Part shown: positions 298 through 19,317 of the stretch, one piece after another
Position numbering within the stretch: position 1 is the first letter of the stretch
How the letters are laid out: every line of letters starts with the position of its first letter
Assembly (NCBI RefSeq): GCF_000828475.1
Contig: NZ_AP014648.1
Span: 1,364,001 to 1,428,000, forward strand
Direction of reading: 5' to 3'
DNA length: 64,000 nt
Source: Methyloceanibacter caenitepidi
GTDB lineage: Bacteria > Pseudomonadota > Alphaproteobacteria > Rhizobiales > Methyloligellaceae
The notes under the pieces: generated by a model
Databases searched by the model: none
What the model was told of the DNA's origin: nothing
What the model saw: only the letters and a program-made list of their open reading frames with translations
Position numbers and translations under genes: made by a program

Positions 298-3264
298 ATG
301 AGCCAGAGAACGGGTGCCACACATTCTATGCTCGGTGCGGGTGCCGCGAGGGCCCGGGGTTTACGGAGCCCGATCCGGCTCGGCGCGCGCGCGCTTCTCG
401 TGGCCGGTCTTTTGATGGCCGCCGGGCCCGCGACCCAGGCGGCGGAGTCTCAGCATCGAGCAATCCCCAGTTATTGTGCCAATGCGAAGTCTTCGGGCCT
501 GCCTCTTCCGACAAGTCTTCCGCAGGATGATTACGAGTCCCGGCTCAAGGCCTTCGTGAAAGACCGGCGCTATGTGAATCTGGGCTGGTGCGTCGACAAA
601 GAGACGGCGGGGAATCTCGTCCGCGACACGGGGCCTTTTATCGACGGGGTCTATTACGGCACTCATCCCGCGGTGCGAGTCTACTATTCGCCTGAGGCCA
701 TGGCGTGGATCACCGGCAACCGGGAATCGCCGATGCCCGATGGCGCCATCATCGTCAAAGAGATGTTCCCGCCGCCCGCGGCCCGCTACGAAGGGCTGAG
801 CGAAGATGAGGTCGTGGACAAGCTCTCCAACTGGACCGTCATGGTCCGGGACGCCGCCGGCGCCAAGGACGGCTGGTACTGGGCCGAGTTCAGCCGATCG
901 GGCGATCAGGCCCACAATGAGCCCTTGGTGCACTTGAACTACCCCGATGCGGGCTTTGGCCAATACTGCGTTCGCTGCCACGCATCGGCCAAGCATCAGT
1001 CGACCTTCTCGACTACGCGCAACATCAAGGGCTTTCCGGGCGAACCGATCCGCTACCGCGTCGATGACTCATGGCGCGAGGGCGCGGTGGCGGCGCCTCA
1101 TGTCCATGAGCCGAAGAACACCCAAAGGGGCTCTCATAGGATGGCGGGGCACGGACTTTCCGAGTTCGGCAAGGCGCCCCCGCGGCTCGGGTCGCCGAAT
1201 CCCGAGTTCATCGCCCTGTTCTCGCCCGGACGCTTTCCGAAAGACGCGCCGCTGCAACTCCTCCCCAAAGAGACTGGAGATCGCGTGGTCGCGCCAGGGA
1301 AGGGCAAGCCGGGCTTTGTCACCTCCGATCAATGCATGAGCTGTCACGGGGGTCTGAATAGCCAGGGCCTGTCGGGTCCCAACCTGTTCATTGCGCTGAG
1401 CCCTGAATACGGCGATGGCTATAATCTCTCACATTACGGCGAATGGCGATGGTCGCCCATGGGGCTCGCCGGCCGCGATCCCATTTTTCACGCGCAACTC
1501 GACAGTGAGATTTCGCTCCTCGAGAAACAGTTCTCTTCGGACCCGGAAAAGGGCAAGACCTATGTGCGCCATTTGGAGAATCTGTGCTTCAGCTGTCATG
1601 CGCCCATGGGGCAGCGGCAGCTCAGCCGCGACGCCGAGACGCTGGACCTCGATCCCCTTTTCAAACGGGAGTACCTGTTTCTCACCGAAGACCACCGCGA
1701 CGACCCGTATTACAAATACGGTGCGCTCGGCCGCGACGGTGTGAGTTGCGCGCTATGTCACAGTGCCCGGTCGGACAAGTTCGCCTCGGCCGATATCGGC
1801 AAGTTGCGCGCCTACCTGACAGAGGTCACGACAGGCCGCCTGCCGAGGGGCGAACTGGGCGAGATCTACGGGCCTCTGAAGGAGGACGACATTGCCGCCG
1901 AGCCCATGAAGAATGCGCTCGGGCTGACACCCAAGCACGATCCCTTCATCAAGAGTTCGCGCCTATGCGGGTCATGCCACACGGTCAATCTCCCTAATGT
2001 GGATCAGCCGATTCCGCCCGATCAACGGACCATGCTCGACGATCTGCCGAACGACGCCCTATTCCGACCGTTCAAACACACGATCGAGCAGGCGACCTAT
2101 CTCGAATGGCTCAATAGCGCTTATCAAGACGAGTATCCCGAGTTCAACAAGACGCCCCAGCATGCGCAAAGCTGTCAGGGGTGTCATATGCCGGAAGGCT
2201 TCACGAGCGCCGACGGCAAGATCCATGTCCAACGTTTACAAGGACGCATCGCTTCCGTTCAGGACCACACCCACCCGGAGGCCGACCACCTGGTCGAAGC
2301 CGACGGCATCAACGTCCGCTATCGCGAGGAGGGCATCAGCCGTCACAAATTTCGCGGCCTCAATGCCACGCTCCTGATGATGTTCGAGCAGTTCAACGGC
2401 ATGCTCGGCGTTCGCAAGGACGATTTCATGACGGGCGCCAAAGGGCTTTCGCAAGCCCTCGAGGGCTACGTCCAGCAGGCGCGCGACAATACGGTCGATC
2501 TCGAAGTTCAAGCGGCGTTCGACGGCGCCAACAGTCTCACCGTCGACGTGGACGTCACCAACAAAGCAGGGCATCGATTCCCGAGCGGGGTCGGTTTCCG
2601 GCGCGCGTTCCTCGAGCTTCTGGTCGTTGAGGATGGCGTGGATGGGGAGCGCACTCTGTGGAGCTCCGGCAGGACGAATACCGTCGGCGCGATCGTCGAT
2701 GGCGACGGCAACGTTCTGCCCACTGAGTTCTTCGACCGCGATGCGGACGGGAAAGAGCAGTATCAGCCTCATCACGAAGTGATCTCGCGGCAAGACCAAG
2801 TGCAGATCTACGAAGAACTGATCCAGGACACGAAGGGCGACTTCACGACCAGCTTCATTCGCCGCCACAAGCACGTGAAAGACAATCGGCTCTTGCCGTT
2901 GGGCTGGCAGCTGCGCGGGCCTTTCCCCGATCGCTACGCCGAGCTCGAATACTATATCGAAGCTACGCATCCCGGTCAGGATGCCATACGCGACCCGGAC
3001 TATACCGACGGCAAGGGGAGGGACCGTATACGATACGAGATCTCTCTGCCCGAGGGGACGGACCCCGACAAGGTGAGCGTTCGCGCAACGCTTTTCTACC
3101 AGTCCATTCCGCCCTATTGGCTGCGCCAACGTTTTGAGACCGCACCGCATATGCCGGCGACACAGCGTCTTTACTACATAGCGAGCCACTTGAATCTCGA
3201 CGGGACGCTTCTCGAAGACTGGAAGCTGCGTCTCGCGTCGGTGACCGCGAAGCCCTCTCGTTAG
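298..3264 (+). CDS. Exported cytochrome P460-domain / multihaem cytochrome c fusion protein
   Basis: 988 aa from the ATG at 298; the frame is also open from a GTG at 268, and an ATG at 328 is possible. A signal peptide is clear: basic stretch, hydrophobic core ALLVAGLLMAAG, then an ATQAA cleavage region. Residues about 60-230 look like a cytochrome P460 domain: VNLGWCVDK, DTGPFIDGVYYGTHPAV, DGAIIVKEMF, WTVMVRDAAG and a closing CVRCH haem motif (224-228). Five further CXXCH motifs follow: CMSCH 346, CFSCH 430, CALCH 484, CGSCH 557, CQGCH 626. The last 300 residues have no haem motif and look beta-rich. P460 proteins bind a Lys-crosslinked haem and oxidise hydroxylamine or related N-compounds. 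Whether this protein does so is inference; it could be a general periplasmic electron-transfer enzyme. The next gene is an MFS carrier. Confidence 0.8.
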   Translation: MSQRTGATHSMLGAGAARARGLRSPIRLGARALLVAGLLMAAGPATQAAESQHRAIPSYCANAKSSGLPLPTSLPQDDYESRLKAFVKDRRYVNLGWCVDKETAGNLVRDTGPFIDGVYYGTHPAVRVYYSPEAMAWITGNRESPMPDGAIIVKEMFPPPAARYEGLSEDEVVDKLSNWTVMVRDAAGAKDGWYWAEFSRSGDQAHNEPLVHLNYPDAGFGQYCVRCHASAKHQSTFSTTRNIKGFPGEPIRYRVDDSWREGAVAAPHVHEPKNTQRGSHRMAGHGLSEFGKAPPRLGSPNPEFIALFSPGRFPKDAPLQLLPKETGDRVVAPGKGKPGFVTSDQCMSCHGGLNSQGLSGPNLFIALSPEYGDGYNLSHYGEWRWSPMGLAGRDPIFHAQLDSEISLLEKQFSSDPEKGKTYVRHLENLCFSCHAPMGQRQLSRDAETLDLDPLFKREYLFLTEDHRDDPYYKYGALGRDGVSCALCHSARSDKFASADIGKLRAYLTEVTTGRLPRGELGEIYGPLKEDDIAAEPMKNALGLTPKHDPFIKSSRLCGSCHTVNLPNVDQPIPPDQRTMLDDLPNDALFRPFKHTIEQATYLEWLNSAYQDEYPEFNKTPQHAQSCQGCHMPEGFTSADGKIHVQRLQGRIASVQDHTHPEADHLVEADGINVRYREEGISRHKFRGLNATLLMMFEQFNGMLGVRKDDFMTGAKGLSQALEGYVQQARDNTVDLEVQAAFDGANSLTVDVDVTNKAGHRFPSGVGFRRAFLELLVVEDGVDGERTLWSSGRTNTVGAIVDGDGNVLPTEFFDRDADGKEQYQPHHEVISRQDQVQIYEELIQDTKGDFTTSFIRRHKHVKDNRLLPLGWQLRGPFPDRYAELEYYIEATHPGQDAIRDPDYTDGKGRDRIRYEISLPEGTDPDKVSVRATLFYQSIPPYWLRQRFETAPHMPATQRLYYIASHLNLDGTLLEDWKLRLASVTAKPSR

Positions 3265-5076: not shown

Positions 5077-5211
5077 TCCTGACGGCATCGCAGGCCGGCA
5101 CGAGCCGAAAGACGAGGCATGTGCCCGCTGCTTTAGTGCCGCCCCCTCTTGCCACGCCGTCGGGCGCCTGCCAATTCTGTCGCCATCGGTCTTCTTACGC
5201 GGCGGAGCACA

Positions 5212-5982
5212 ATGCCACGTACACTGGTGAGATTCTGTCTCGGCCTCGTCGCGGGGGCACTTGCATGCCTTCCGGTAAAGTCTGTCCGCGCTGCAGAGGC
5301 AACGGTTGCGGTCGCCGCCAATTTCACGTCGGCCGCGAAGCAACTCGGCGCAGCCTTCGAGAAGTCGACGGGGCATCGTGTGGTGTTCAGCTTCGGATCG
5401 ACCGGGCAACTCTTCACCCAGATTGCGCATGGGGCTCCGTTCGATGTCTTCTTGGCGGCGGATGAAGCGCGTCCGCAGCGGGCCGCAGCAGAGGGGCTAG
5501 GCGTCGCGGGAACGCGTTTCACATACGCGATCGGGGTCCTTGTTCTTTGGAGTGCGGACCCCGCTCGGATCGACGGCACACCGGCGGTATTGTCTGACCC
5601 CAACCTGCGCCACGTCGCCATCGCCAATCCGGCTACCGCGCCCTATGGCGCGGCCGCGATCGACACGATGAAGGCGCTCGGCGTCCTCGAGGCGCTTGAA
5701 CCGCGGCTCGTAGAGGGGAAGAATGTCGGTCAGACCTATCAGTTCGTGGCAACGGGCAATGCGCCGGTGGGCTTTGTCGCCGCCTCGCAGGTCAAGAACA
5801 ACGACACGGGTTCAAGTTGGACCGTGCCCGACGACATGTACCGCCCCTTGCGGCAAGATGCGGTTCTCTTGACGCGTGGCCGCAACAACGAGGCAGCCAA
5901 GACCTTTCTGGCGTACCTGAAAGGCTCCGAAGCCCTCAAAGTCATCGAGGGGTTCGGATACAAGATGCCGGGAGAGGACTAA
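5212..5982 (+). CDS. modA: Molybdate ABC transporter, periplasmic binding protein
   Basis: 256 aa from ATG 5212 (GGAG upstream); an in-frame ATG at 5149 would spoil the signal peptide. The precursor has a leader ending VRAAEA. The mature protein starts with the ModA pattern ATVAVAANFTSAAKQL, followed by GSTGQLFTQI and APFDVFLAADEARP, which form the oxyanion pocket in this family. It binds molybdate or tungstate in the periplasm and delivers it to ModB. modB starts 15 bases downstream, so modABC is one operon. No ModE-like palindrome was noticed upstream. Confidence 0.93.
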   Translation: MPRTLVRFCLGLVAGALACLPVKSVRAAEATVAVAANFTSAAKQLGAAFEKSTGHRVVFSFGSTGQLFTQIAHGAPFDVFLAADEARPQRAAAEGLGVAGTRFTYAIGVLVLWSADPARIDGTPAVLSDPNLRHVAIANPATAPYGAAAIDTMKALGVLEALEPRLVEGKNVGQTYQFVATGNAPVGFVAASQVKNNDTGSSWTVPDDMYRPLRQDAVLLTRGRNNEAAKTFLAYLKGSEALKVIEGFGYKMPGED

Positions 5983-5997
5983 AGGGGGACTGCCGCC

Positions 5998-6666
5998 ATG
6001 TTCGATGCAGCGCTGATTGAGACGATCCTACTCACGTTGCAGCTCGCGGTGGTCACCACCCTCGTTCTTCTCATCATCGGCATCCCGCTCGCATGGTGGC
6101 TCGCGCGCAGCACGGCGCGCGGCAAGGAGATCGTCGCGGTCCTGGTCGCGCTTCCCATCGTGCTGCCGCCGACTGTCCTCGGTTTTTACCTTCTCATCGC
6201 CATGGGCCCCAATAGTCCGCTCACGACTCTGATCGGCCGGTCGCTACCCTTCACCTTCGAGGGGCTTGTCGTAGGCTCTGTTCTCTATTCTATGCCCTTC
6301 GTCGTGAATCCGATCCGCACCGCGTTCGAGGCGATGGGTGAGCGCCATTGGGAAGCGGCCGCAACCTTACGCGCAGGGCCTCTGGACGCTTTCTTCAACG
6401 TCGCCTTGCCGTTGGCGCTGCCGGGCATTCTGACCGGCGCTATTCTGGGATTTGCGCATACGATGGGCGAGTTCGGCGTCGTGCTGATGATCGGTGGCAG
6501 CATCCCCGGCGAGACCAAGGTCCTTTCCATCGCCATCTTCGACTTCGTGGAAACGCTGGAGTGGGGCAAAGCCCACGTGCTGGCCGGCGCGATGCTGGCG
6601 CTGTCCTTCGCGGTGATCTTCGCGATGCGCATGGTCGAAACGCGTTTCAAAAGCGAGCGCCCGTGA
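5998..6666 (+). CDS. modB: Molybdate ABC transporter permease
   Basis: 222 aa, five to six membrane segments. The binding-protein-dependent transport EAA loop is visible as [26 protein letters not shown] (about residues 119-145), the contact point with Mod[16 protein letters not shown] is typical of ModB. It forms the inner-membrane channel for molybdate. Its stop codon overlaps the GTG start of modC (GTGA), implying translational coupling. Confidence 0.93.
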
Positions 6667-7751
6667 TCGAGGCACAGTTTTCAGGACAGCAAGGCAGCTT
6701 CAAGCTCAATGTAGAGTTTGCCGCGCCAAGTGAAGGGGTCACGGCTTTGTTCGGCCCCTCCGGCTGCGGCAAGACCACGGTGTTGCGGTGCGTGGCCGGT
6801 CTCACCCGCTTGGCGCAGGGCAAGCTCGTGGTCGACGGCGAGGTGTGGCAGGAGGGGCGGCGCTTCGTGCCGGTGCACCGCCGCGCGATCGGCTACGTTT
6901 TCCAGGAGGCTAGCCTATTTCCGCATCTGTCGGTGCGCGAAAATATCGAGTTCGGCCAGAAGCGCGCCAAACGGGCCAAAGGCAGCAGACAGACGATCGG
7001 CTTTGATGATGTCGTCGATCTCCTCGCCATCGCACCGCTTTTCGATCGGCCCACATCACGCCTGTCCGGCGGCGAGCGTCAGCGCGTCGCAATCGGCCGC
7101 GCGCTTCTCTCGCAGCCCCGTCTGCTCTTGATGGACGAGCCGCTGTCTGCGCTCGACCGTATGGGACGCGAAGAGATTCTCCCGTATCTCGAGCAACTGC
7201 ACAGAACTTTATCGATCCCGGTGCTCTATGTGAGCCACGACATGCGCGAGATCGAACGATTGGCGGACACTTTGGTTCTCATGCGGCACGGTGCGGTCCG
7301 CGCTGCGGGGCCCATTGCCGACCTGCTATCCGATCCGAGCTTGCCTCTGGTCCGCATGCCGGAACCGGCGTCTGTGCTCGATGGAACCGTCAAGGAGTAC
7401 GACCCCGGTTACGGCCTCGCGACCATCGAGGTGCCGGGCGGTACGCTTCTCGTGGCCGGCGATATAGGGCCGACCGGATCGACCCGGCGCCTGCGGATTG
7501 AGGCAAGCGATGTGAGCCTCAGTCGGCATGCGGTGAAGGACATCACGATCTTGAACGCGCTGCCGGTCCGCATCGACACGGTTCAGCCGATCGGCGAAAC
7601 GCAGATGACCGTCCGGCTCAAGCTCGGAGAGGACGGGAGCGGGGCGCCGCTTCTCAGCCGTGTCTCGCGCCTGTCCTGGGACCGGCTCGGGTTCAAGCCC
7701 GGGGACACGGTCGTTGCGCAGATCAAGGCCGTCGCCCTCGCAAGGACCTAG
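6663..7751 (+). CDS. modC: Molybdate ABC transporter ATP-binding protein
   Basis: 362 aa starting at the GTG that overlaps the modB stop; the frame is open further upstream but inside modB. Walker [10 protein letters not shown] at 31-39, Q-loop near 81, signature LSGGERQ at 134-140, Walker B LLLMDEP at 154-160 and the switch His in YVSHDM. The C-terminal 70 residues match a MOP/TOBE molybdate-binding domain, e.g. [12 protein letters not shown] followed by ILNALPVRI, which separates ModC from other importers. It energises molybdate uptake and senses intracellular oxyanion. Confidence 0.93.
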
Positions 7752-7779: not shown

Positions 7780-9339
7780 TTAGCCCGGCGTCTTCCGCGC
7801 ACGGATAAGAACAGCGCATAGAACCACGCCAAGCAGCGCCGCGCCGGTCATCAGGCTCATGACCCCGGAGAAGCCGGCATCGAACGCCCTCAAAAGTGCT
7901 GACTGGACCTTCTCCATGTCGCCAGCCGGGAGTTGGGCCAGAGCCTTGCTAACTTGGCTCTCGGAGCCGTGGACCAACGTGACTTTCAGCGCATCCGCGT
8001 CCGGCAGCACGCTGCTGGCGCTATCCACAAACGGATCGATAATGCGGCGCTTGATCTGCAGCGCGACGACGGCGCCGAGTGCCGTTCCGACCGCGAGCCC
8101 CGAATAAAGGCATGTGTTGACGACACCGGAACCTTGCCCCGCATTGGTGTCGGGCAGGGCGTCCAAACCGATACGGGGCAGGAGGGTCATCGTCAGTCCC
8201 ACGCCGACGCCGATGAAGGTCAGCCTCCACCAAATGTCCTCGAACGGCGTCTGGTGATCGACGCCGTGCATCAGCCGGAACCCGATCGCGAGGGCGGCCA
8301 TGCTGACGGTCGCCCACACGCCGTAGCGGCTTGGTGAAATGGTATGTGGCGCCACCAGGGAGACCACGAACATCACGGCCGTGAAGGGCAGGAGCGCGAG
8401 TCCCGCTTGGAGTGCACTGAAGCCCAGGCCTTCCGGGGCCTGGATGTAATAGTTGATGAAAAAGAGAATCCCGATCTGCGTGAACCCGCTCAAGAACATG
8501 CCGGCCGCTGCCGCCGAGTAGTTCCGGTAGCGGAAGAAGTCGAAACGGACGAGCGGGTCCGCCGAATGGAGTTCCCTAGCGGCAAACCCGGCGCCGGCCA
8601 GCAATGTGAGCGCAAACAGGCCCAACGCTGGCAGTGAGGTCCAGCCGTAAAGGGGGCCGCAGGTCAGGGCGTAGAGGAACGCCGCGAGCGTCACGAACAG
8701 CAGGGCGATCCCGGCAAAGTCCGTGCGCTTGCCGCCCTCGAGCACGGCGGGCGTCAATCCGGTGCGCATCACCCACAGGCACAGCAGGGCAGCCGTTCCG
8801 AGGATCACCAGATCGAGAATGAAGATCGCCCGCCAGCTGATGCCGTCGGTCAACGCGCCGCCGATCAGCGGACCTAGAGCGAAGCCCAAGGCCACGGCGG
8901 CGGCCCACACGCCGTGGGCGGAGGCGCGCTGCTCGGCGGGAGTTGATCGGCTGATCAAAGCGACCGAAGCGGCCATGACGGCGGCGATGCCAAGCCCTTG
9001 GAGCGCACGACCCACAAGCAGCAGGATCGCCCCGTCAGCGATGACGATTCCGATGGAGCCGAGCGCGAAAAAGACAATGCCGCACAGGAAGATTCGGGCC
9101 ATGCCGTACGTGTCGCCGAGATGACCCATGGCCGCCAGCGTCGCCGCGCCGAACAGCATGTAGACATTGATCACCCATTGCAGCGCGTCGAGATCGAGGT
9201 CGAGTTCCGACTTCATCGCGGGAAGAGCGGTCATGACGGCGGTCGTGTTGTACGCGACTGCGAATGCGCCCACGCAAGCCGCTACGACAACCAGCCAGAA
9301 ACTGTGCTTCCGGCCGGCAGTATCGGTCGCCGGTGTCAT
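7780..9339 (-). CDS. MFS exporter of the DHA2 (14-TM, EmrB/QacA-like) type
   Basis: 519 aa from the ATG at 9339, chosen because AGGGGAC lies just upstream; the open frame reaches 9381. The N-terminus has the DHA2 features TALPAMKSEL.DLDALQWVINVYML, GHLGDTYGMARIFL (motif A) and GPLIGGALTDGISWRAIFILD (motif C). About 14 hydrophobic segments are spread over the length. Such proteins export drugs or hydrophobic compounds by proton antiport. It converges on modC with a 28-base gap and has no adjacent regulator or membrane-fusion partner, so the substrate is unknown. Confidence 0.85.
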   Translation of the reverse strand: MTPATDTAGRKHSFWLVVVAACVGAFAVAYNTTAVMTALPAMKSELDLDLDALQWVINVYMLFGAATLAAMGHLGDTYGMARIFLCGIVFFALGSIGIVIADGAILLLVGRALQGLGIAAVMAASVALISRSTPAEQRASAHGVWAAAVALGFALGPLIGGALTDGISWRAIFILDLVILGTAALLCLWVMRTGLTPAVLEGGKRTDFAGIALLFVTLAAFLYALTCGPLYGWTSLPALGLFALTLLAGAGFAARELHSADPLVRFDFFRYRNYSAAAAGMFLSGFTQIGILFFINYYIQAPEGLGFSALQAGLALLPFTAVMFVVSLVAPHTISPSRYGVWATVSMAALAIGFRLMHGVDHQTPFEDIWWRLTFIGVGVGLTMTLLPRIGLDALPDTNAGQGSGVVNTCLYSGLAVGTALGAVVALQIKRRIIDPFVDSASSVLPDADALKVTLVHGSESQVSKALAQLPAGDMEKVQSALLRAFDAGFSGVMSLMTGAALLGVVLCAVLIRARKTPG

Positions 9340-9484
9340 GAAGTCCCCCTGATGCTCGCTCGCCCCGACCCCGTCTAGCACAAAGTGAGGATCATTGCGC
9401 GCGGCGGCGCGCTTGCCGGAATCGCGTGACCTGTGGCAAATCGCCTACGAGGCTTCGTGAGCGGAGCCCTTGAGGCGCGATATC

Positions 9485-9498
9485 TTGATGGGCATCAA
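9485..9498 (+). promoter_or_regulatory. Perfect FNR/FixK box (TTGAT-N4-ATCAA)
   Basis: TTGATGGGCATCAA is an exact match to the FNR/FixK palindrome. Its centre is about 90 bases before the ATG of the Cys-rich protein at 9581. With activator spacing of 41.5 bp, transcription would start near 9533. The fixK gene lies 3.6 kb downstream. Confidence 0.75.
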
Positions 9499-9580
9499 CG
9501 CCATGACGAGAGAATAGCGTAGGTGTGATCGCCGCCACCCCGGGGGAGCAGCACCAAGACAACCGGGAGGATAGTTCGTT

Positions 9581-9850
9581 ATGAAGAATTTCGTCATCGT
9601 CGCGATCGTTTCGTTCTTGGCAGGCGCGGCCCACATGGGAAGCGCCAACGCCTCCGCCTACAGCGAGGCCGTGCGCAAGCATTGCCGGGCGGACTACAAG
9701 AATTATTGCGGCGAGTATGGGCTGGAAACAAATGCCTTGCGCAACTGTATGGACCGGCACGGCGACAAGTTGTCGGACGCCTGCGTGCGTGCGCTCGTCC
9801 AGTCCGGGGAAGTAAGTCAGCGGGAAGTCGACCGGCGCAGAAAGAAGTGA
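9581..9850 (+). CDS. Small exported cysteine-rich repeat protein
   Basis: 89 aa behind GGGAGG. A signal peptide ends near SANA-SA (residue 25). The mature part carries HCRADYKNYCGEYG...NCMDRHGDKLSDAC, four cysteines in the spacing of the bacterial Cys-rich (GLG1-type) repeat, which usually forms two disulfides. Function of this family in bacteria is not established. A perfect FNR/FixK box 83-96 bases upstream suggests induction under low oxygen by the FixK encoded at 13122. The tail is strongly basic (RREVDRRRKK-like). Confidence 0.75.
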   Translation: MKNFVIVAIVSFLAGAAHMGSANASAYSEAVRKHCRADYKNYCGEYGLETNALRNCMDRHGDKLSDACVRALVQSGEVSQREVDRRRKK

Positions 9851-9897
9851 CGCTAGAATCGCTAAGCGGGCAGATGAGCCTTTAGGGAGAAACATCC

Positions 9898-10251
9898 ATG
9901 ACAAAGCACGAACGGCTTCTCGGCATCGCCGCCGCCCTGCTTCTGACGCTGCTTAGCGTCAGCGCCGTGGTCGCCGGCGACTGGGCGGGGAAGTATGTGA
10001 CCGAGGATACGAAGGGCAACACCTTCACGATCACCCTCGCGGCCGATTCCAAAGCGCATGGCGAGAAGCAGGGCCATGTCCTCGAAGGGGAGTGGTCGGT
10101 GGACGGCGCAAGCGCCGTCATCAAATGGACCACCGGCTGGACGACGAAACTCACCCAGGACGGGGACGGCTACACCAAAACTGCCTATCGGCCCGGGGCG
10201 CAGGTCACGGACGAAGGGGCGAAGGCAACCCCCGTCAAGCGGGTCGATTAG
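9898..10251 (+). CDS. Small secreted protein, lipocalin-like size, unknown function
   Basis: 117 aa, preceded by AGGGAGAAAC. Signal peptide MTKHERLLGIAAALLLTLLSVSAVVAG, cleaved near VAG-DW. The mature 90 residues contain alternating beta-type stretches (GKYVTEDTKGNTFTITL, HVLEGEWSVDG, VIKWTTGWTTKL) resembling a small META/lipocalin-like barrel that binds or displays something in the periplasm; the family is not recognised. It is 47 bases after the Cys-rich gene and may be co-transcribed from the same FixK-controlled promoter. Confidence 0.65.
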   Translation: MTKHERLLGIAAALLLTLLSVSAVVAGDWAGKYVTEDTKGNTFTITLAADSKAHGEKQGHVLEGEWSVDGASAVIKWTTGWTTKLTQDGDGYTKTAYRPGAQVTDEGAKATPVKRVD

Positions 10252-10312
10252 GGCACCTTAGGAACCGACGCTCGGCCTTCGCGCGGCGCGCGAAAGTGCT
10301 AATCTCCGGGTG

Positions 10313-11854
10313 ATGCATGGACCTGTGCCGAACAAGCGTCCCCTCGGCTCAGTAGAGCGGTTGCGGCGTGCGATACTCAGCCCCGAGACGGGCGCCGTAC
10401 ATTATGGCGTGGCCGTCGCGGCCGTGGTGGGCATGGCCTGCCTTGCCTGGGGGCTGTATCCGTGGCTTGAAGGGCGCGCGTCCTTCCTCATTTTCATCCC
10501 TGGTCTGGCCATTGCGGCCGGTTTCGGCGGTATCGGTCCGGGCTTTCTCGCAACATTTCTGTCGGCGGCAATCGGCTATGCACTGATTCCGCACAGCACG
10601 GCGGCCATTCCGGATCTGGCCGAGCTCGGCATTTTCACCGGTGTGGGGATCGGGATTGCCTGGCTGGGCGAGCTGCTGCGCCGCACGCGCCTGCGCAGCC
10701 GCCGCAGTGCCAAGGAAGTCCGCGCGCGCGAGGCTCATCTGCGCTCAATCCTGGACACCGTTCCCGATGCGACCGTGGTCATTGACGAGACCGGCATGAT
10801 CCGCTCCTTCAGCGCCGCGGCCGAGCGCCTCTTTGGACATAAGGAAATAGAGGTTGCCGGCAAGAACGTGGCTATGCTGATGCCTTCGCCGTTCCGCGAC
10901 GAGCATGATTCTTATATCTCGCGTTACCTCGAAACGGGGCAGAAGCGCATCATCGGCTTCGACCGGGTGGTGACCGGGGAACGCAAGGACGGATCCACAT
11001 TCCCGATGAAGCTCGAGGTCGCGGAAATGCGATCGGGCGAGCAGCGGTTCTTCACCGGCTTCATACGCGACCTGACCGAACGTCAGAGAACGGAGAAGCA
11101 GCTTCAGGATCTGCAGACCGAGCTGGCGCGGCTATCCCGCCTGACTGCCATGGGCGAGATGGCCTCGACCCTGGCGCATGAAGTCAATCAGCCGCTGACG
11201 GCCATCTCCAACTACCTACAAGGCTGCAACCGGCTGCTGGAATCCATCGAGGACCAGAAAGTCGCCATGGTGCGCGAGGCGTTGGCGGCCACGACGAAGC
11301 AGACCCTGCGCGCCGCCGATATTATCCGGCAACTCCGCGATTTCGTGACGCACCACGAAACGATCCGCCATCCTGAGGACATCAACGATCTTGTCGAGGA
11401 GACCAGCGCCTTGGCCCTGATCGACGCCAAGGACGAGGGCGTGAAGCCGAGCTTTCAGTTCGATCGGTCTGTCTCGAACGTGATGGTCGTCAAGGTCCAG
11501 ATCCAGCAGGTTCTGCTGAACCTGATGCGCAACGCCATCGAGGCGATGGAAGGGTGTGACCCGAAAGTCCTATTGGTTTCGACGTCCCGCTCCCCCACGG
11601 ATACGTACGAGACGGGGGAGCCTATGGTGCAGGTCATGGTCGCCGATACCGGGAGCGGTCTCTCAGAGGAGATCGCCGATCAGCTCTTTCAGCCCTTCGT
11701 CACGACCAAGGCCAATGGCATGGGTGTGGGCCTGTCGATATCCAAGCGCCTGGTCGAGGCGCACGGAGGGCGCATGTGGGTCGAGAAGAATCCCGGTGGC
11801 GGCACGGTGTTCCGGTTTACGCTGGAGCCGGCCGAAGGCGAGGACGCGGCGTGA
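10313..11854 (+). CDS. fixL: Oxygen-sensing haem-PAS histidine kinase FixL
   Basis: 513 aa from ATG 10313 (a GTG lies directly before it). Order: four membrane helices (DUF4118-type, residues 30-115), PAS domain 140-260, DHp and HATPase. The PAS domain keeps the FixL haem signature [22 protein letters not shown]: His198 aligns with the proximal His200 of Bradyrhizobium FixL, and Arg218, twenty residues on, with the distal Arg220. H-box [14 protein letters not shown] has His289; G1/G2 boxes are DTGSGL and [17 protein letters not shown]. Loss of O2 from the haem turns on autophosphorylation and transfer to FixJ. Its stop overlaps the fixJ start (TGATG). Confidence 0.93.
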
Positions 11855-12477
11855 TGCCTGCCAATCCTATCGTGCATATCGTCGATGACGACGAGGCGGT
11901 TCGCCAGTCCTTGGCGTTCATGCTCGGTTCGGCGGGCCTTCCCGTTCGGCTCTACGATTCGGCCGGCGCATTTCTGGATGCCCTCGATCCGATGGTGTGC
12001 GGATGTCTCGTCACGGATGTCCGCATGCCGGATATGACGGGGATCGAGCTGCTCGGCCGGGTGAAAAGCAAAGCGCATTGCCTGCCGGCGATCGTCATTA
12101 CGGGACACGGCGACGTTCCGCTTGCCGTCGAAGCCATGAAGGCCGGCGCGGTGGACTTCATAGAGAAGCCCTTCGAGGACGCGGTGCTGCTCAGGGCGGT
12201 GGAATCGGCGCTCAAAACCGCCGGTGGGGATGGTGACACCCAAATGCAGGAGGTCATGAGTCGGCTTTCAACCCTATCGGAGCGTGAGCGCCAGGTTCTT
12301 GAAGGCTTGGTGGCGGGCCAGGCGAACAAGGTCATCGCCGCTGCTTACGGCATCAGTCCGCGAACAGTTGAAGTCTATCGTGCGAATGTCATGACCAAGA
12401 TGCAGGCGAAGAGTCTGTCTGAACTCGTGCGAATGGCGGTACGTGCCCATGTCGGGCCAGCCTCCGACACAGGCTAG
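11854..12477 (+). CDS. fixJ: Response regulator FixJ
   Basis: 207 aa from the ATG overlapping the fixL stop. Receiver domain with acidic residues DDD 11-13, phospho-acceptor Asp55 in VTDVRMPDMTG and the conserved Lys in DFIEKPFE. The C-terminal LuxR/FixJ-type HTH runs about 137-195 (LSERERQVLEGLVAGQANKVIA...RTVEVYRANVM). Phosphorylated by FixL at low oxygen, it activates fixK-type promoters. A FixJ-like element is present in front of fixK at 13028. Confidence 0.93.
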   Translation: MPANPIVHIVDDDEAVRQSLAFMLGSAGLPVRLYDSAGAFLDALDPMVCGCLVTDVRMPDMTGIELLGRVKSKAHCLPAIVITGHGDVPLAVEAMKAGAVDFIEKPFEDAVLLRAVESALKTAGGDGDTQMQEVMSRLSTLSERERQVLEGLVAGQANKVIAAAYGISPRTVEVYRANVMTKMQAKSLSELVRMAVRAHVGPASDTG

Positions 12478-12514
12478 CAATGGATAGCCAGCTGTTTTCA
12501 ATGTCGATTTCCAT

Positions 12515-12528
12515 TTGACGTGGCTCAA
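12515..12528 (+). promoter_or_regulatory. FixK-type box upstream of the orphan receiver
   Basis: TTGACGTGGCTCAA fits the FixK2-type consensus TTG[A/C]-N6-[T/G]CAA. Its centre is 83 bases before the receiver's ATG (12605), so a class II promoter would start near 12563. Confidence 0.5.
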
Positions 12529-12604
12529 TGCCGCAGGCGCGTCGCTGCCTAGACTGCGGGTGTCGGTACGGGGTGACCTGCGGGACGAGGGCGGACGTTG
12601 GGGA

Positions 12605-13015
12605 ATGAGGCATATGAGCCAGGGTGGTACGGTGCTGATCGCCGTTGGTGACGGGACTCTTGCCGACAGCATGCGGTTTTCGTTGGAGTTAGAAGGATAT
12701 GAGACACGTTTCTGCGATGAGCACGCGCTATCGCCCCTCCTGCGGGCGCCCTGTATCCGCAGTGCCTGCGTGGTGCTGGACCAAGACGTCTTTTCGCGGG
12801 TCGCAGAAGCTGGCGACTCACAGCTTCCCTGCGATCCCTGTGTCCCGGTCATCCTCATGGTCTCCCAGAAAACCGAGCGGCTCATGGCCAAAGCCAGGAC
12901 CGGCGGGGTCACCACGGTCCTCGAAAAGCCGATCCTCGGCGGGGTCCTGTTAGAGACCATCCGGCAAGCAATTGAATCCAAAGGCAGTTCTGGCCAGCCC
13001 GTGCTGCCGTCCTGA
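12605..13015 (+). CDS. Degenerate single-domain response regulator (RrpX-like position)
   Basis: 136 aa from ATG 12605; an ATG three codons later (12614) is also possible. It has receiver-domain layout with no output domain: VLIAVGDG in place of the acidic VDDD pair (only Asp16 remains), a potential phospho-acceptor Asp59 in CVVLDQDVF, and Lys108 in VLEKPI. Loss of one acidic residue may weaken Mg2+ binding. It sits between fixJ and fixK, the place where Bradyrhizobium carries rrpX (from memory). A role as phosphate sink or modulator of FixL is inference. A FixK-type box lies upstream. Confidence 0.75.
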   Translation: MRHMSQGGTVLIAVGDGTLADSMRFSLELEGYETRFCDEHALSPLLRAPCIRSACVVLDQDVFSRVAEAGDSQLPCDPCVPVILMVSQKTERLMAKARTGGVTTVLEKPILGGVLLETIRQAIESKGSSGQPVLPS

Positions 13016-13027
13016 TTTAGGCTGGGC

Positions 13028-13043
13028 TACGTAGTTTCCCTTA
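13028..13043 (+). promoter_or_regulatory. FixJ-type activator element upstream of fixK
   Basis: TACGTAGTTTCCCTTA differs at only two positions from the TAAGTAATTTCCCTTA element I recall from FixJ-activated fixK and nifA promoters of rhizobia. It also contains CTACGTAG, close to the GTA[A/C]GTAG core of high-affinity FixJ sites. It is 79-94 bases before the fixK ATG, putting the transcription start near 13097 if the rhizobial spacing holds. Confidence 0.6.
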
Positions 13044-13060
13044 GGGAGCCGGACCGAATT

Positions 13061-13074
13061 TTGATCGAGCGCAA
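13061..13074 (+). promoter_or_regulatory. FixK-type box inside the fixK promoter
   Basis: TTGATCGAGCGCAA matches TTG[A/C]-N6-[T/G]CAA. It lies 18 bases after the FixJ-like element, so its centre would be near -30 relative to the start predicted from that element. That position favours repression, i.e. negative autoregulation. Confidence 0.5.
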
Positions 13075-13121
13075 ACATCTCTATCTCTGACGTCAGTCAA
13101 ATAAGCCTTCCGGGGGTTATC

Positions 13122-13802
13122 ATGCTGACGCCAAATCCCGCCGTCGAACTTTCTCAGACTCAGATGCCGCCCGCGCCGCCGGTGTTTCCGCAGCCGCGCG
13201 ACGAAGGTGACTTCCACACATCGAGCGTCCCGCTCAATTTCGCCCGCAACAGTGAGATTTTTGCCGAGGGCGAAAGCGCTGGCTACGTCTACAAGATCGT
13301 CTCGGGCGTCGTTCGCGTATCGAAGCTTCTGCCGGACGGACGCCGGCAGATCAGCGCCTTCCACCTTCCGGGCGATATGTTCGGCTTCGAGGTGGACGAC
13401 GTGCACCACGTCTCGGCCGAGGCGATCGGGCCCGTAAAGGTCCTCGCCTACAAATGGCAGAGCCTGCTCAGCAACACGTCGTCGAGTGGCTTCGTCCACG
13501 AACTACTCAACCGCACCATGATCGGCCTCCGGCAGACACAGGATCATCTGCTGCTGCTCGGCCGGAAGAACGCGCTGGAGCGGCTGGCAGCGTTTCTCAT
13601 CGAGATGGTGCGCCGCACGGGTTCGGATCGCTCGCTGCAGCTGGCCATGCCACGACACGATATCGCGGACTATCTCGGGCTGACCCTTGAGACGGTGTCC
13701 AGGATGTTTGCCGAACTGAAAGACGCCGGTATCATCAAGCTCGAATCGGCCCGGCAGGTGTCGGTGCTCGACATGCAGAAGCTGGAGGCAATGGCTACAT
13801 GA
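13122..13802 (+). CDS. fixK: Crp/Fnr-family transcription regulator FixK
   Basis: 226 aa. The N-terminal cAMP-binding-like beta roll spans about 40-150 (EIFAEGESAGYVYKIVSGVVRVSKLLPDGRRQISAFHLPGDMFGFE). A Crp-type HTH follows at 178-220 (MPRHDIADYLGLTLETVSRMFAELKDAGII), whose E-SR recognition residues fit TTGAT-type boxes. It lacks the N-terminal Fe-S cysteines of Fnr, so it is the FixK class controlled through FixLJ rather than a direct O2 sensor. FixJ and FixK sites precede it. Its stop overlaps the next start (ATGA). Confidence 0.92.
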   Translation: MLTPNPAVELSQTQMPPAPPVFPQPRDEGDFHTSSVPLNFARNSEIFAEGESAGYVYKIVSGVVRVSKLLPDGRRQISAFHLPGDMFGFEVDDVHHVSAEAIGPVKVLAYKWQSLLSNTSSSGFVHELLNRTMIGLRQTQDHLLLLGRKNALERLAAFLIEMVRRTGSDRSLQLAMPRHDIADYLGLTLETVSRMFAELKDAGIIKLESARQVSVLDMQKLEAMAT

Positions 13803-14349: not shown

Positions 14350-16023
14350 ATGGCCGCATCGACTCAGCGCGATGAGTGGAAAGCGCTATCGGATATTCTC
14401 GCGATTGGGGCCGCGGCGTTTCTCGTTATTATCGGTCTCGTCCTTGCGATAGCAGGAGACGGCTTGGCCATGAAGTTTCATGGCTGCGTCCTGCTTGGCG
14501 CATCGGGCCTTGCACTTCTTTATATGCTGACTCAGTTCGTCGAGGCGCGTGAGCCGGCGGACACGACCGGATACGCGGATGGCGTCGTCCGGGCCGGCGT
14601 CATCGCGACGGTATTCTGGGGCATAGCCGGGTTTGTCGTGGGCGATCTTATTGCCTGGCAACTGGCGTTTCCCGCGCTGAACTTCGATCTGCCGTGGACA
14701 AGCTTCGGGCGTCTGCGGCCGCTCCACACATCTGCCGTGATCTTTGCCTTCGGCGGCAACGCCCTGATCGCGACCTCGTTCTACGTCGTGCAGCGCACCT
14801 GCCGCGCGCGGTTGGCGGGCAAATGGTCCCCGTGGTTCGTGTTCTGGGGCTATCAGCTGTTCATCGTTCTGGCGGCCACCGGTTATCTGCTCGGCGTCAC
14901 GCAGAGCAAGGAATACGCAGAGCCTGAATGGTATGTGGATCTGTGGCTGACCCTCGTTTGGGTGGTCTATTTCCTCGTCTTCATCGGCACCATCGCCAAG
15001 CGCAAGGAGCCGCACGTCTACGTCGCCAACTGGTTCTACCTGGCGTTCATCGTCACCGTCGCCATGCTGCACATCGTCAACAATCTGGCGGTGCCGGTGT
15101 CGCTGCTCGGGACGAAGAGCTACATCCTGTATTCAGGCGTCCAAGACGCCATGACCCAGTGGTGGTACGGCCATAACGCGGTGGGTTTCTTCCTGACGGC
15201 CGGCTTCCTCGGCATGATGTACTACTTCGTGCCGAAACGCGCCGAGCGGCCCATCTATTCGTACCGCCTGTCGGTGGTCCATTTCTGGTCGCTGATCTTC
15301 ATCTACATCTGGGCCGGCCCGCACCACCTGCATTACACGGCTTTGCCGGACTGGGCGCAGACGCTCGGCATGACCTTTTCGATCATTTTATGGATGCCGT
15401 CTTGGGGCGGCATGATCAACGGCCTCATGACGCTGTCTGGTGCCTGGGACAAGCTGCGCACCGATCCGGTCATTCGCATGCTGATCGTGGCCGTCGCCTT
15501 CTACGGCATGTCGACCTTCGAAGGCCCGCTGATGAGCATCAAGTCTGTGAACTCGCTGTCTCACTACACGGACTGGACCATCGGTCACGTGCATTCCGGT
15601 GCGCTCGGTTGGGTGGCCTTTATCAGCTTCGGCGCGATCTACTGCCTCGTGCCCTGGCTTTGGCACCGCAAGGCGCTCTACTCGCAGCGTTTGGTCGAGT
15701 GGCACTTCTGGATCTCGACGCTCGGCATCGTGCTCTACATCACATCCATGTGGGTCTCGGGGATCCTGCAAGGGTTGATGTGGCGGGCCTACAACTCGCT
15801 CGGCTTCCTCGAATACTCCTTCGTGGAGACGGTTGAGGCCATGCACCCGTTCTACATCATCCGGGCCATCGGCGGACTGCTCTTCGTCATTGGCGCGCTG
15901 TTGATGGCGTACAATTTGTGGCGCACGGTCCGCGGCGATGAGCCTGTCGATGCGACCGATCAACCGCCCGTCGCCGCGGCTCCCGAGTTCCGCCCTGGCG
16001 AATACACGGCGCCGGCGGAGTAG
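14350..16023 (+). CDS. ccoN: cbb3-type cytochrome c oxidase subunit I
   Basis: 557 aa, about 12-14 membrane helices. The haem-copper oxidase fold is clear: [59 protein letters not shown] with the CuB/haem ligand His, [15 protein letters not shown] with the His pair for CuB, and [14 protein letters not shown] with haem b ligands. Those motifs define CcoN, the catalytic subunit of the high-affinity oxidase. It is the first gene of ccoNOQP and sits behind a FixK box. The C-terminal 25 residues are Pro/Ala-rich and cytosolic. Confidence 0.96.
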
Positions 16024-16033
16024 GGAGAGACCA

Positions 16034-16768
16034 ATGAGCTGGGGAAAACACGAGGTCCTGGAAAAAAGCCCGATGCTGATGCTGATCGGCATCCTCATCG
16101 TGGTGAGCATTGGCGGTCTGATCGAGATCGCGCCGCTGTTCTGGCTGAGTTCCACAGTTGAGAAGGTGCAAGGCATGCGGCCGTACTCGCCGCTGGAGCT
16201 GGCAGGGCGCAACATCTATGTGCGCGAGGGCTGCTATCTATGCCACAGCCAGATGATCCGTTCGCTGCGCGACGAGGTCGAACGCTACGGTCATTACAGC
16301 CTGGGCGCCGAGAGCATGTATGACCATCCGTTCCAATGGGGATCCAAGCGTACGGGCCCCGACTTGGCGCGGGTCGGCGGCAAATATTCCAATGAGTGGC
16401 ACCGCGAGCACATGATCGACCCGCGCGCGGTCGTGCCGGAATCCGTGATGCCCGGCTATCCGTTCCTCGCGGAAAATGCGCTCGACTACGACGACATCCA
16501 GGATCAATTGAAGACCAACGTGGCCGTCGGAGTTCCTTATACGGAGGAGATGATCGAGTCCGCGAAGGCCGATCTCGAGGCGCAGGCTGGCAAGGACACA
16601 GGTGACGTGGAGGCGCTGCTCGCTCGCTACCCGAAGGCGCAGACCGGGCCGTTCGACGGCAATCCCGACGAAATCACCGAGTTGGATGCCCTAGTCGCGT
16701 ACTTGCAAATGCTCGGAACGCTCGTCGACTTCGCCAGCTTTGACGAAGCCGGCCCCAATCTGAGGTGA
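16034..16768 (+). CDS. ccoO: cbb3 oxidase monohaem cytochrome c subunit
   Basis: 244 aa from ATG 16034, after GGGAGAG and 10 bases past ccoN. One N-terminal membrane anchor (residues 14-38) is followed by a periplasmic domain with a single haem motif CYLCH at 67-71. [30 protein letters not shown] and VMPGYPFL are the standard CcoO landmarks, the last holding the axial Met. It passes electrons from CcoP to CcoN. Confidence 0.96.
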
Positions 16769-16778
16769 GGACGGGACG

Positions 16779-16955
16779 ATGGATTACGAACAAGTTGCTT
16801 CGATCAGCCAGGTAGCCGCGCTCATCTTCTTCATCGTGCTTTTCGCCGGTGTCGTTCTGTACGCCTTTTGGCCCGGCAACAAGAAGCGCTTCGATGAGGC
16901 GGCGAAACTGCCTTTGGAAGACGACCCAGAGTCCGACAACGGGAAAGACAGCTGA
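16779..16955 (+). CDS. ccoQ: cbb3 oxidase small subunit CcoQ
   Basis: 58 aa, too short for simple ORF cut-offs. It begins MDYEQVASISQVAALIFF, has one membrane helix (about 10-30), then the CcoQ turn YAFWPGNKKRFDEAAKLPL and an acidic tail. It lies 10 bases after ccoO and 3 bases before ccoP. CcoQ stabilises the assembled oxidase. Confidence 0.93.
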   Translation: MDYEQVASISQVAALIFFIVLFAGVVLYAFWPGNKKRFDEAAKLPLEDDPESDNGKDS

Positions 16956-16958
16956 GCC

Positions 16959-17825
16959 ATGGCCAAGAAGGACACCAACACCTCGGAGGACGTCGGAACC
17001 ACCGGTCACGAGTGGGACGGCATTGAGGAATGGAACAATCCGCTGCCCAAGTGGTGGCTGTACGTCTTCTATGCGACGATCGTATGGGCGATCGGCTATT
17101 GGATTGTCTATCCGGCCTGGCCCACGGCCTCGTCCTATACGAAGGGATTCTTCGGCTACAGCCAGCGCGGCCAGGTGACGAAGGACGTGGCCGCCTCTCA
17201 AGCCGAGAAGGCGGTTTACCGTGACAAGATCGCTGCAAGCGATCTCGAGGCGATCAAGGCCGATCCGGAGTTGTTCAACTTCGCGCTGGCCGGTGGTCAG
17301 GCGGCTTTCGGCGATAACTGCGCGCCGTGCCACGGCCGTGGTGCGCAAGGGGCTTTCGGATATCCGAACCTGCGTGACGACGCCTGGCTGTGGGGCGGCT
17401 CGCTTGAGGCAATCCATCAGACCATCCAGCACGGCATTCGCGCCGAGGATTCGGCTACGCGCATGAGCATGATGCCGGCTTTCGGCAAGCTCGGCATGCT
17501 GAACCGCGAGCAGGTCTCCGACACCGCCGAATATGTGATGTCGTTGTCCGGCAACGAGGACGACGCCGAGGCGGCGGCGCGCGGCAAGGAGATTTTCGCG
17601 ACGAATTGTGCCGCTTGCCACGGTCCCGACGGCCGAGGAAACCAAGCGCTGGGCGCGCCCAATCTTACGGACGAGTTGTGGTTGTACGGCGGAGACAAAG
17701 ACACGATCGTCGAAACGATCAACTACTCCCGAGCGGGCATGATGCCGGCCTGGTCGGGGCGGCTCGACCCGGCGACGATCAAGGAGCTTGCGATCTACGT
17801 GCACTCCCTGGGTGGCGGTCAGTAG
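16959..17825 (+). CDS. ccoP: cbb3 oxidase dihaem cytochrome c subunit
   Basis: 288 aa. A cytosolic start with TGHEWDGIEEWNNPLPKWW, the usual CcoP signature, precedes one or two membrane helices (about 30-55). Two cytochrome c domains follow with CAPCH at 121-125 and CAACH at 217-221, each with a downstream Met (MMPAFGKLG, MMPAWSGRL). It receives electrons from bc1 or soluble cytochromes. ccoG starts 19 bases after its stop. Confidence 0.96.
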   Translation: MAKKDTNTSEDVGTTGHEWDGIEEWNNPLPKWWLYVFYATIVWAIGYWIVYPAWPTASSYTKGFFGYSQRGQVTKDVAASQAEKAVYRDKIAASDLEAIKADPELFNFALAGGQAAFGDNCAPCHGRGAQGAFGYPNLRDDAWLWGGSLEAIHQTIQHGIRAEDSATRMSMMPAFGKLGMLNREQVSDTAEYVMSLSGNEDDAEAAARGKEIFATNCAACHGPDGRGNQALGAPNLTDELWLYGGDKDTIVETINYSRAGMMPAWSGRLDPATIKELAIYVHSLGGGQ

Positions 17826-17844
17826 CGTCCGGGCGTACTTTGGA

Positions 17845-19317
17845 ATGAAGATGGCGAATGTCGAGCTGGGCGGCGGCGGCGGCGCGTCCCCCTTCAATGA
17901 GGGACCGCAGCTCTATGCCGGGCGCACCAAGATCTATCCGAAAGAGGCCCACGGCCGGTTCAGGACGACCAAATGGATCGTCATGGCCGTCACGCTGGGT
18001 ATCTATTACCTGCTGCCCTGGATACGTTGGGACCGCGGGCCCTATCTGCCCGACCAGGCTGTCCTGATCGATCTGCCGGCGCGCCGCTTCTATTTCTTCT
18101 TTCTCGAGATCTGGCCCCAAGAATTCTATTACATCACCGGCTTGCTGGTGCTGGCCGCATTGGCGCTGTTTCTCATTACGTCGGTAGCGGGCCGCGTGTG
18201 GTGCGGTTACACCTGCCCGCAGACGGTTTGGACCGACTTGATGATCGCTGTAGAGCGGTTCTGGCAAGGAGACCGCAACGCGCGCCTGCGGCTCGACAAG
18301 CACCCTTGGTCCTTCGAAACGATCTGGCGGAAGGGCGCCACGCATCTGACCTGGCTTGCGATCGCGGTGGCGACCGGGGGCGCTTGGGTCTTTTACTTCG
18401 CCGACGCGCCGACGCTGGCAAATCAGCTGGTGACATTCAGTGCGCCGACTGCCGCCTACTTCTTCATCGGCCTGTTCACGGTGTCGACCTACGTCCTGGG
18501 CGGTATCGCGCGCGAGCAGGTGTGCGTCTACATGTGTCCTTGGCCGCGCATTCAGGGCGCCATGTTCGATCGCGACTCCCTGTTGATTTCGTATCGCGCC
18601 TGGCGCGGCGAGCCGCACGGTCCCCATAAGGCCGGACAGTCTTGGGAGGGGCGCGGCGATTGCGTCGATTGCCGTCAATGCGTCGCGGTCTGCCCGGCCG
18701 GCATTGATATTCGCGACGGCGCGCAGCTCGAATGCATTCAGTGCGCGCTCTGTATCGATGCCTGCGACGAAATCATGGACAAGGTCGGCAGACCCCGCGG
18801 TCTGATCGCCTATGACACGATCCGTAATCTCGATGCCGGTGCGGAGGATGCCGAACCGCTGCGGCTGCTGCGGCCGCGAGTGCTGCTCTATGCCGGCGCT
18901 ATCGCCCTGGTGAGCATCATCATGATCGTTGCACTCGTGCTACGCCCGGTGCTCGAGGTCAACGTGCTGCACGACCGCAATCCTCTGTTCGTGAAGCTGT
19001 CCGACGGCGGCGTGCGCAACGGGTACGAGGTCAAGCTTCTGAACAAGCAGTACGTCCCGCGGGCTTTCAAGATCGGTGTCTCCGGTCTGACGGGCGCCAG
19101 TGTACAGATGGTCGGTCACGAAGGCGGTGTCGTGCCGGTTCCGCCGGACCAATTGCAGGCCGTCAAGCTCTACATCACCCTGGATAAAGCAGGCGTTCGC
19201 GCGTTGCCCGAACAGGCGACGCCGTTCCAGCTCGTCGTGACCGACATCGCGACAGGAGCGAGCACCGAGCATGACGCGACCTTCCAGGGGCCGCCCAAGC
19301 AAGAGGCAAGACGATGA
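17845..19317 (+). CDS. ccoG: cbb3 oxidase assembly protein CcoG (FixG), polyferredoxin-like
   Basis: 490 aa from ATG 17845; an ATG two codons later is possible. Five membrane helices. Cysteine motifs CGYTCPQTVWTD and CVYMCPWPRIQG are followed by two [4Fe-4S] ferredoxin motifs (CVDCRQCVAVCP from residue 273, then CIQCALCIDACD). The C-terminal 140 residues form the periplasmic domain typical of FixG. CcoG reduces Cu(II) for insertion of CuB in the oxidase. Its stop overlaps the ccoH start. Confidence 0.94.
   Translation: MKMANVELGGGGGASPFNEGPQLYAGRTKIYPKEAHGRFRTTKWIVMAVTLGIYYLLPWIRWDRGPYLPDQAVLIDLPARRFYFFFLEIWPQEFYYITGLLVLAALALFLITSVAGRVWCGYTCPQTVWTDLMIAVERFWQGDRNARLRLDKHPWSFETIWRKGATHLTWLAIAVATGGAWVFYFADAPTLANQLVTFSAPTAAYFFIGLFTVSTYVLGGIAREQVCVYMCPWPRIQGAMFDRDSLLISYRAWRGEPHGPHKAGQSWEGRGDCVDCRQCVAVCPAGIDIRDGAQLECIQCALCIDACDEIMDKVGRPRGLIAYDTIRNLDAGAEDAEPLRLLRPRVLLYAGAIALVSIIMIVALVLRPVLEVNVLHDRNPLFVKLSDGGVRNGYEVKLLNKQYVPRAFKIGVSGLTGASVQMVGHEGGVVPVPPDQLQAVKLYITLDKAGVRALPEQATPFQLVVTDIATGASTEHDATFQGPPKQEARR

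Follow-up and report, generated by a model that had tools for sequence, protein, structure and literature searches.

The locus and its gene

The window analysed here is a 64,000-nucleotide stretch of the one-contig, 3.42 Mb genome of Methyloceanibacter caenitepidi (NZ_AP014648.1, positions 1,364,001 to 1,428,000), and all coordinates below refer to it unless stated otherwise. An open reading frame on its plus strand (298-3264) runs without internal stop from an ATG at 298 to a stop codon at 3262-3264 and encodes a protein of 988 amino acids; an alternative in-frame GTG start at 268 is possible. The protein contains exactly six CXXCH motifs (C224, C346, C430, C484, C557 and C626), the first inside a cytochrome P460 domain and the remaining five downstream of it, which agrees with the original prediction of a P460 domain with its own motif followed by five more. 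The product is probably a six-haem fusion protein exported to the periplasm, and its parts are listed in Table 1. The full-length AlphaFold model, from which the haems are absent, has a mean pLDDT of 76 and a pTM of 0.75. Confidence is very low in the linker between the P460 and the pentahaem domain, where the pLDDT falls below 50 (residues 263-296) and where the fused proteins share a mean identity of 19% (residues 263-325), compared with 45-51% in the domains.

Table 1. Features of the fused gene and its product (window coordinates)
Feature	Coordinates	Strand	Basis
Whole gene, six-haem P460-pentahaem (PHC)-Ig fusion, 988 aa	298..3264	+	sequence, Pfam, alignment, dN/dS
Putative Sec signal peptide, residues 1-48, hydrophobic core ALLVAGLLMAAG, AxA-like site	298..441	+	read from sequence; N-terminus poorly conserved
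Cytochrome P460 domain, residues ~60-262	475..1083	+	PF16694; Foldseek of isolated model; profile vs McP460
His123	664..666	+	invariant in fused proteins; at most one residue from the position aligned to the NsP460 distal capping Phe76
Lys154	757..759	+	aligned to haem-cross-link lysine (McP460 Lys78, NsP460 Lys106)
Thr180	835..837	+	position of proton-accepting carboxylate (McP460 Asp102, NeP460 Glu96; Ala131 in inactive NsP460)
Haem 1 motif CVRCH, residues 224-228, P460 domain	967..981	+	CXXCH invariant, 26/26
Linker, residues 263-325	1084..1272	+	low model confidence, poorly conserved
Pentahaem cytochrome (PHC) domain, residues ~330-720	1285..2457	+	Foldseek and profile match to 5ze8
Haem 2 motif CMSCH, residues 346-350	1333..1347	+	sequence and PHC alignment
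Haem 3 motif CFSCH, residues 430-434	1585..1599	+	sequence and PHC alignment
Haem 4 motif CALCH, residues 484-488	1747..1761	+	sequence and PHC alignment
Haem 5 motif CGSCH, residues 557-561	1966..1980	+	sequence and PHC alignment
Haem 6 motif CQGCH, residues 626-630	2173..2187	+	sequence and PHC alignment
His683, likely distal haem ligand	2344..2346	+	invariant across PHC family outside CXXCH
Ig-like C-terminal domain, residues ~733-988	2494..3261	+	beta-rich model; His759 (loop GHRFPSG), His825

Upstream of the gene no FNR-type boxes were found, and a single weak sigma-70-like site (193-220) does not count as evidence. The nearby genes include modABC for molybdate transport (5149-7751; ModA scores 248 bits, ModB and ModC were assigned by reading). 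A putative microaerobic-respiration cluster (10310-13802 and 14350-19317) begins about 7 kb downstream with FixL, a FixJ-like regulator, FixK and a small cytochrome c, followed by apparent genes for a cbb3 oxidase (ccoNO, ccoP and ccoG) and for a copper P-type ATPase that extends to 22009. Beyond it, on the minus strand, lies an apparent membrane AlkB-type alkane hydroxylase or desaturase (22217-23371; histidine-box motifs HELTHRQ, HVHHRR and HSDHH), for which there was no NCBIfam match at 1e-5.

Clustering of flanking ORFs from the window and 23 further loci revealed no neighbour common to the fused genes across phyla. This is in line with a function carried out by a single protein, and without a conserved partner gene the context favours no single substrate. 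Two candidate clues were discarded. The MFS gene downstream, which reaches just 47 of the 312 bits set for the NarK family, is common only to the nearest species and is missing beside the gene at another locus (L006). At L024 a fused gene has a stand-alone P460 gene 2 kb away, but this is a single case.

The P460 domain

The N-terminal domain is a member of the cytochrome P460/c'-beta superfamily, as originally predicted. Pfam family PF16694, whose cut-off is 27 bits, matches residues 127-234 with 51.9 bits (E=1.2e-13). When the domain was modelled in isolation (residues 56-262, mean pLDDT 83), the top 20 Foldseek matches in the PDB were all cytochromes c'-beta or P460 (best E=2.6e-4, probability 1.00, TM about 0.5 by target), and proteins of both kinds are also among the next matches of the full model, at its N-terminal domain, after the pentahaem structure described below. 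As a single query in phmmer the sequence weakly matches Methylococcus capsulatus P460 in the PDB (E=0.04); a profile of the fused family matches McP460 with E=3e-7.

P460 proteins had been described as usually short and stand-alone, and this is borne out by about 70 P460 matches in 240 Alphaproteobacteria, of which only four, apart from that of the window, lie in frames of about 1000 amino acids. A scan of the whole M. caenitepidi genome found three P460-type genes, of which that of the window alone is fused. The two stand-alone proteins differ from each other in their haem pocket: the first (L001, G000:C1:3227238-3227630) has the cross-link lysine and a Phe at the carboxylate position, the second (L002, G000:C1:1182646-1183050) a Gly at the lysine position.

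The pentahaem module and the Ig-like tail

In Foldseek the full model has a single significant PDB match, 5ze8 (E=7.8e-9, probability 1.00, TM 0.61 by target), which is the structure of Thermochromatium tepidum pentahaem cytochrome c552. Sequence profiles agree, with E=4.3e-7 against 5ze8 and E=1.8e-10 for a profile of the pentahaem part plus the tail, which also matches the multihaem selenoprotein MccSep (9wt8, E=1.3e-4); the strongest local profile match to 5ze8 falls within the C-terminal region 733-988. The multihaem part and the tail together thus belong to the pentahaem cytochrome (PHC)/c552 family with an Ig-like C-terminal domain, a family that includes Geobacter ExtKL, Gsu2801 and the cable-bacterial sPHC and lPHC, and whose structural homology to T. 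tepidum c552 has been noted (PMC11976967). The fusion shares with these proteins the order of five CXXCH motifs followed by an Ig-like domain with a conserved GHxFPxG loop. Unlike them it carries an N-terminal P460 domain and a large PHC domain, and it scores 29.2 bits with the ExtKL equivalog NF040886, whose curated cut-off is 250.

The tail had been predicted to be haem-free and beta-rich. Residues 733-988 are indeed beta-rich and contain no CXXCH motif, but they form an Ig-like domain of a known family that probably takes part in haem ligation, because His759 and His825 are conserved. In an alignment of 28 PHCs, both fused and unfused, no exceptions occur at His683 and His759, and at least 90% of the proteins have His825; all three are likely distal haem ligands, judging from this conservation. 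The GHRFPSG loop with His759 aligns with 5ze8 and with the MccSep loop that bears Sec325. MccSep has a PHC-type module in common with the fusion, and the position of Sec325 in the same Ig loop (GHRFPSGV, 2569-2592, residues 758-765) is taken here by the nearly invariant Val765. A related group of pentahaem proteins of about 1050 amino acids from Myxococcota, Comamonas and Rhodobacter (L043, L061-L065) has no P460 domain and no Pfam name; in these proteins an insert separates the haem domain from the Ig-like one.

Distribution and evolution of the fused gene

Of 50 relatives that the collection scan yielded, about half are fused over the full length, with identities of 30-77%. The gene is not unique to the organism: a survey of the same domain order found P460-PHC-Ig in 26 aligned proteins from six phyla. 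The closest named relative, from Methyloceanibacter sp. MO_226.B1, is 77% identical over its whole length. The fused form nevertheless is sparse. A relative of the gene occurs in five of the 17 genomes of the genus that were searched, M. caenitepidi included, the fused form in about 2% of the sampled Pseudomonadota genomes, and in five of 199 sampled genomes of the Acidobacteriota, where unfused PHCs are commoner. A gene present in only about one genome in fifty of the phylum must have an accessory role, which may not be the same in every host.

In a tree of the PHC domain 25 of the 26 fused proteins group together (SH-aLRT 92), and within this clade those of Methyloceanibacter fall with proteins of Planctomycetota, Rhodobacterales and Bacteroidota. 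This mixture of phyla suggests that the gene has moved between lineages, as does a copy of the fused gene on a plasmid of 600 kb in Paracoccus. The exception in the tree is a degenerate protein from an Acidobacteria contig (L042, 1572-4952), which lacks the cross-link lysine and groups with unfused large PHCs; since it falls outside the clade, the fusion must have been gained twice, or gained once and lost once. Its gene, which encodes Ala in place of the lysine, is followed on that contig at a distance of about 3 kb by a second fused gene (7956-10682), and the two are divergent.

The evolutionary distances of the P460, PHC and Ig domains are correlated at 0.83-0.90, values reached by none of 2000 permutations; the domains diverge in step, and hence appear to work as a unit. 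Each domain is under purifying selection, with dN/dS well below 1 relative to the nearest relatives (dN about 0.14 and dS about 1.7 against the nearest species, the latter near saturation). In two related genomes of the genus (G012, at L008/L011, and G007, at L012) the reading frame changes between the P460 part and the pentahaem part. Their reading as split genes was rejected, as homology is continuous through the break, which is therefore a frame break. Both breaks fall within the same linker stretch. They reflect sequencing error or decay, as do the four single-base deletions in an otherwise conserved gene of a third genome of the genus (G004, L010).

The haem pocket and the proposed function

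The residue numbering of the characterised proteins McP460, NeP460 and NsP460 follows Table 2 of PMC11928373. Alignments to McP460 Lys78 and NsP460 Lys106 agree in placing Lys154 at the position of the cross-link lysine. The original prediction looked for this residue, and it is retained in 25 of the 26 fused proteins, compared with eight of 25 alignable stand-alone superfamily members from Alphaproteobacteria, the rest of which mostly have Met or Phe. Neither of the two findings named beforehand as refuting the prediction, an N-terminus without a P460 fold and homologues that all lack this lysine, was thus made. The lysine is not proof of a cross-link, and a Lys-haem bond is assumed here from its position. 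The distal carboxylate (Glu96/Asp102 position), which accepts protons in the P460s that oxidise NH2OH, is absent: the alignments to McP460 and NsP460 place Thr180 there, and Thr is found in 24 of the 26 fused proteins. NsP460, which is cross-linked and has no carboxylate, does not oxidise NH2OH (PMC11928373, Table 2), and activity is lost when the Glu of NeP460 is changed to Asp at this position (PMC11928373). By the rule that follows from these data, the retention of Lys154 and the replacement of the carboxylate by Thr180 lead one to expect a P460-type haem without the NH2OH oxidase activity known from other P460s.

Asp100, His123, Tyr130 and Trp137 do not vary among the fused proteins, Asp100 and His123 being specific to them, and position 127 is Arg or Lys in all 26. 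If the family has a distal residue of its own, His123 would be the strongest candidate. Its exact equivalence with NsP460 Phe76 was dropped when three alignments placed Thr122 at this position and His123 one residue on.

The preferred reading, to which we give an even chance, is a self-contained extracytoplasmic redox enzyme in which a P460-type haem handles a small ligand and the pentahaem relay moves the electrons. Haem 1 would be five-coordinate and cross-linked via Lys154; the ligand bound there would most likely be NO or another nitrogen oxide, possibly peroxide; and the five PHC haems would act as a built-in relay that feeds or drains the haem 1 site. Direct passage of electrons from the P460 haem to the chain, as first proposed, is plausible. 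Thr180 tips the preference, with modest confidence, away from NH2OH oxidation and towards a small oxidised ligand (NO, another N-oxide or peroxide) that would be handled reductively or detoxified. It is possible, if doubtful, that the fusion marks an undescribed, widespread family that combines a cross-linked P460 haem, a new distal pocket (Thr and the invariant His) and a hard-wired relay to perform new chemistry such as NO or peroxide reduction.

His123 could also ligate the iron and thereby make haem 1 a pure electron carrier. The whole protein would then serve electron transfer or storage only, with the P460 domain as a sixth carrier haem; electron transfer is the role discussed for the PHC relatives ExtKL and T. 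tepidum c552 (PMC11976967). Such a role is unlikely: the distal site is open in known P460-fold haems (PMC11928373), and a lysine that is kept in nearly all fused proteins and missing from most stand-alone members would be needless in a simple carrier.

Improbable, too, is a periplasmic peroxidase-like enzyme, in which the relay would feed the open P460-fold haem and His123 with the basic Arg127 would form the distal acid-base pair that acts on H2O2. Both positions are conserved throughout the 26 proteins and lie near the distal capping position; however, the register of His123 is ambiguous by one residue, homology to known cytochrome c peroxidases was not found, and we know of no P460-fold peroxidase. 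Peroxide chemistry as such is not foreign to P460 haems, since peroxide takes part in the formation of their cross-link (PMC11928373).

We hold in equally low regard a wired hydroxylamine oxidase, in which the P460 haem would oxidise NH2OH with Asp100 or His123 as proton acceptor, the five haems would take the electrons, and the enzyme would clear NH2OH arising from ammonia co-oxidation in this methylotrophic host. The conserved Lys154, a host close to methylotrophs and methanotrophs, and a built-in electron acceptor that suits an oxidase are all compatible with it, and the invariant Asp100 or His123 could stand in for the missing carboxylate. Against it stand the rarity of the gene within the genus and, to our knowledge, the nature of most fusion hosts (Acidobacteriota, Verrucomicrobiota, Bacteroidota and Myxococcota), which are not known as ammonia or methane oxidisers. 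The threonine at the carboxylate position also weighs against this role, since P460s with the carboxylate absent or shifted are inactive (PMC11928373), and it is unlikely that the protein oxidises NH2OH by the mechanism known for P460.

Relation to known systems and significance

The self-contained redox enzyme proposed here resembles several characterised systems in part. With cytochrome P460 (NeP460, McP460 and NsP460) it shares the fold, the one CXXCH motif and the Lys at the cross-link position, and its pocket is nearest to that of NsP460, both having no distal carboxylate. It differs from the stand-alone P460s of about 200 amino acids in the Thr at the carboxylate position, the invariant Asp100 and His123, and the pentahaem partner. 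Like hydroxylamine oxidoreductase (HAO), it has one special haem inside a multihaem protein, whereas HAO is unrelated in structure and uses a Tyr cross-link (PMC11928373). In architecture it is analogous to lPHCtX of cable bacteria, an lPHC fused to a truncated haemoglobin that was suggested to be a terminal oxidase (PMC11976967) and likewise joins a large pentahaem cytochrome to a gas-binding haem domain. The Pfam matches of the 988-residue protein include no haemoglobin domain; in place of the truncated haemoglobin with its b-haem, reported only from cable bacteria, the fusion has a P460 domain with a covalent c-haem and occurs in six phyla.

The fusion had been put forward as uncharacterised. 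This stands, and its annotation goes no further than hypothetical protein, the name given to the Paracoccus homologue in RefSeq; its multihaem part, however, can be assigned to an established family, that of the PHC/pentahaem c552 cytochromes. No report of a P460 domain fused to a multihaem cytochrome was found in the open-access literature searched. Both modules are known; their fusion appears to be a new combination and does not constitute a new class.

The characterised P460 proteins are single-domain proteins that depend on external electron carriers. A wired P460 allows the purpose of the Lys-haem cross-link to be asked directly, in a protein from which the NH2OH-oxidising carboxylate is missing, and, after the lPHC-truncated haemoglobin, is the second case in which a gas-binding haem domain is attached to a pentahaem relay. 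If NO or N2O precursors are what it handles, the fusion would be relevant to the way in which soil and marine bacteria other than nitrifiers turn over nitrogen oxides.
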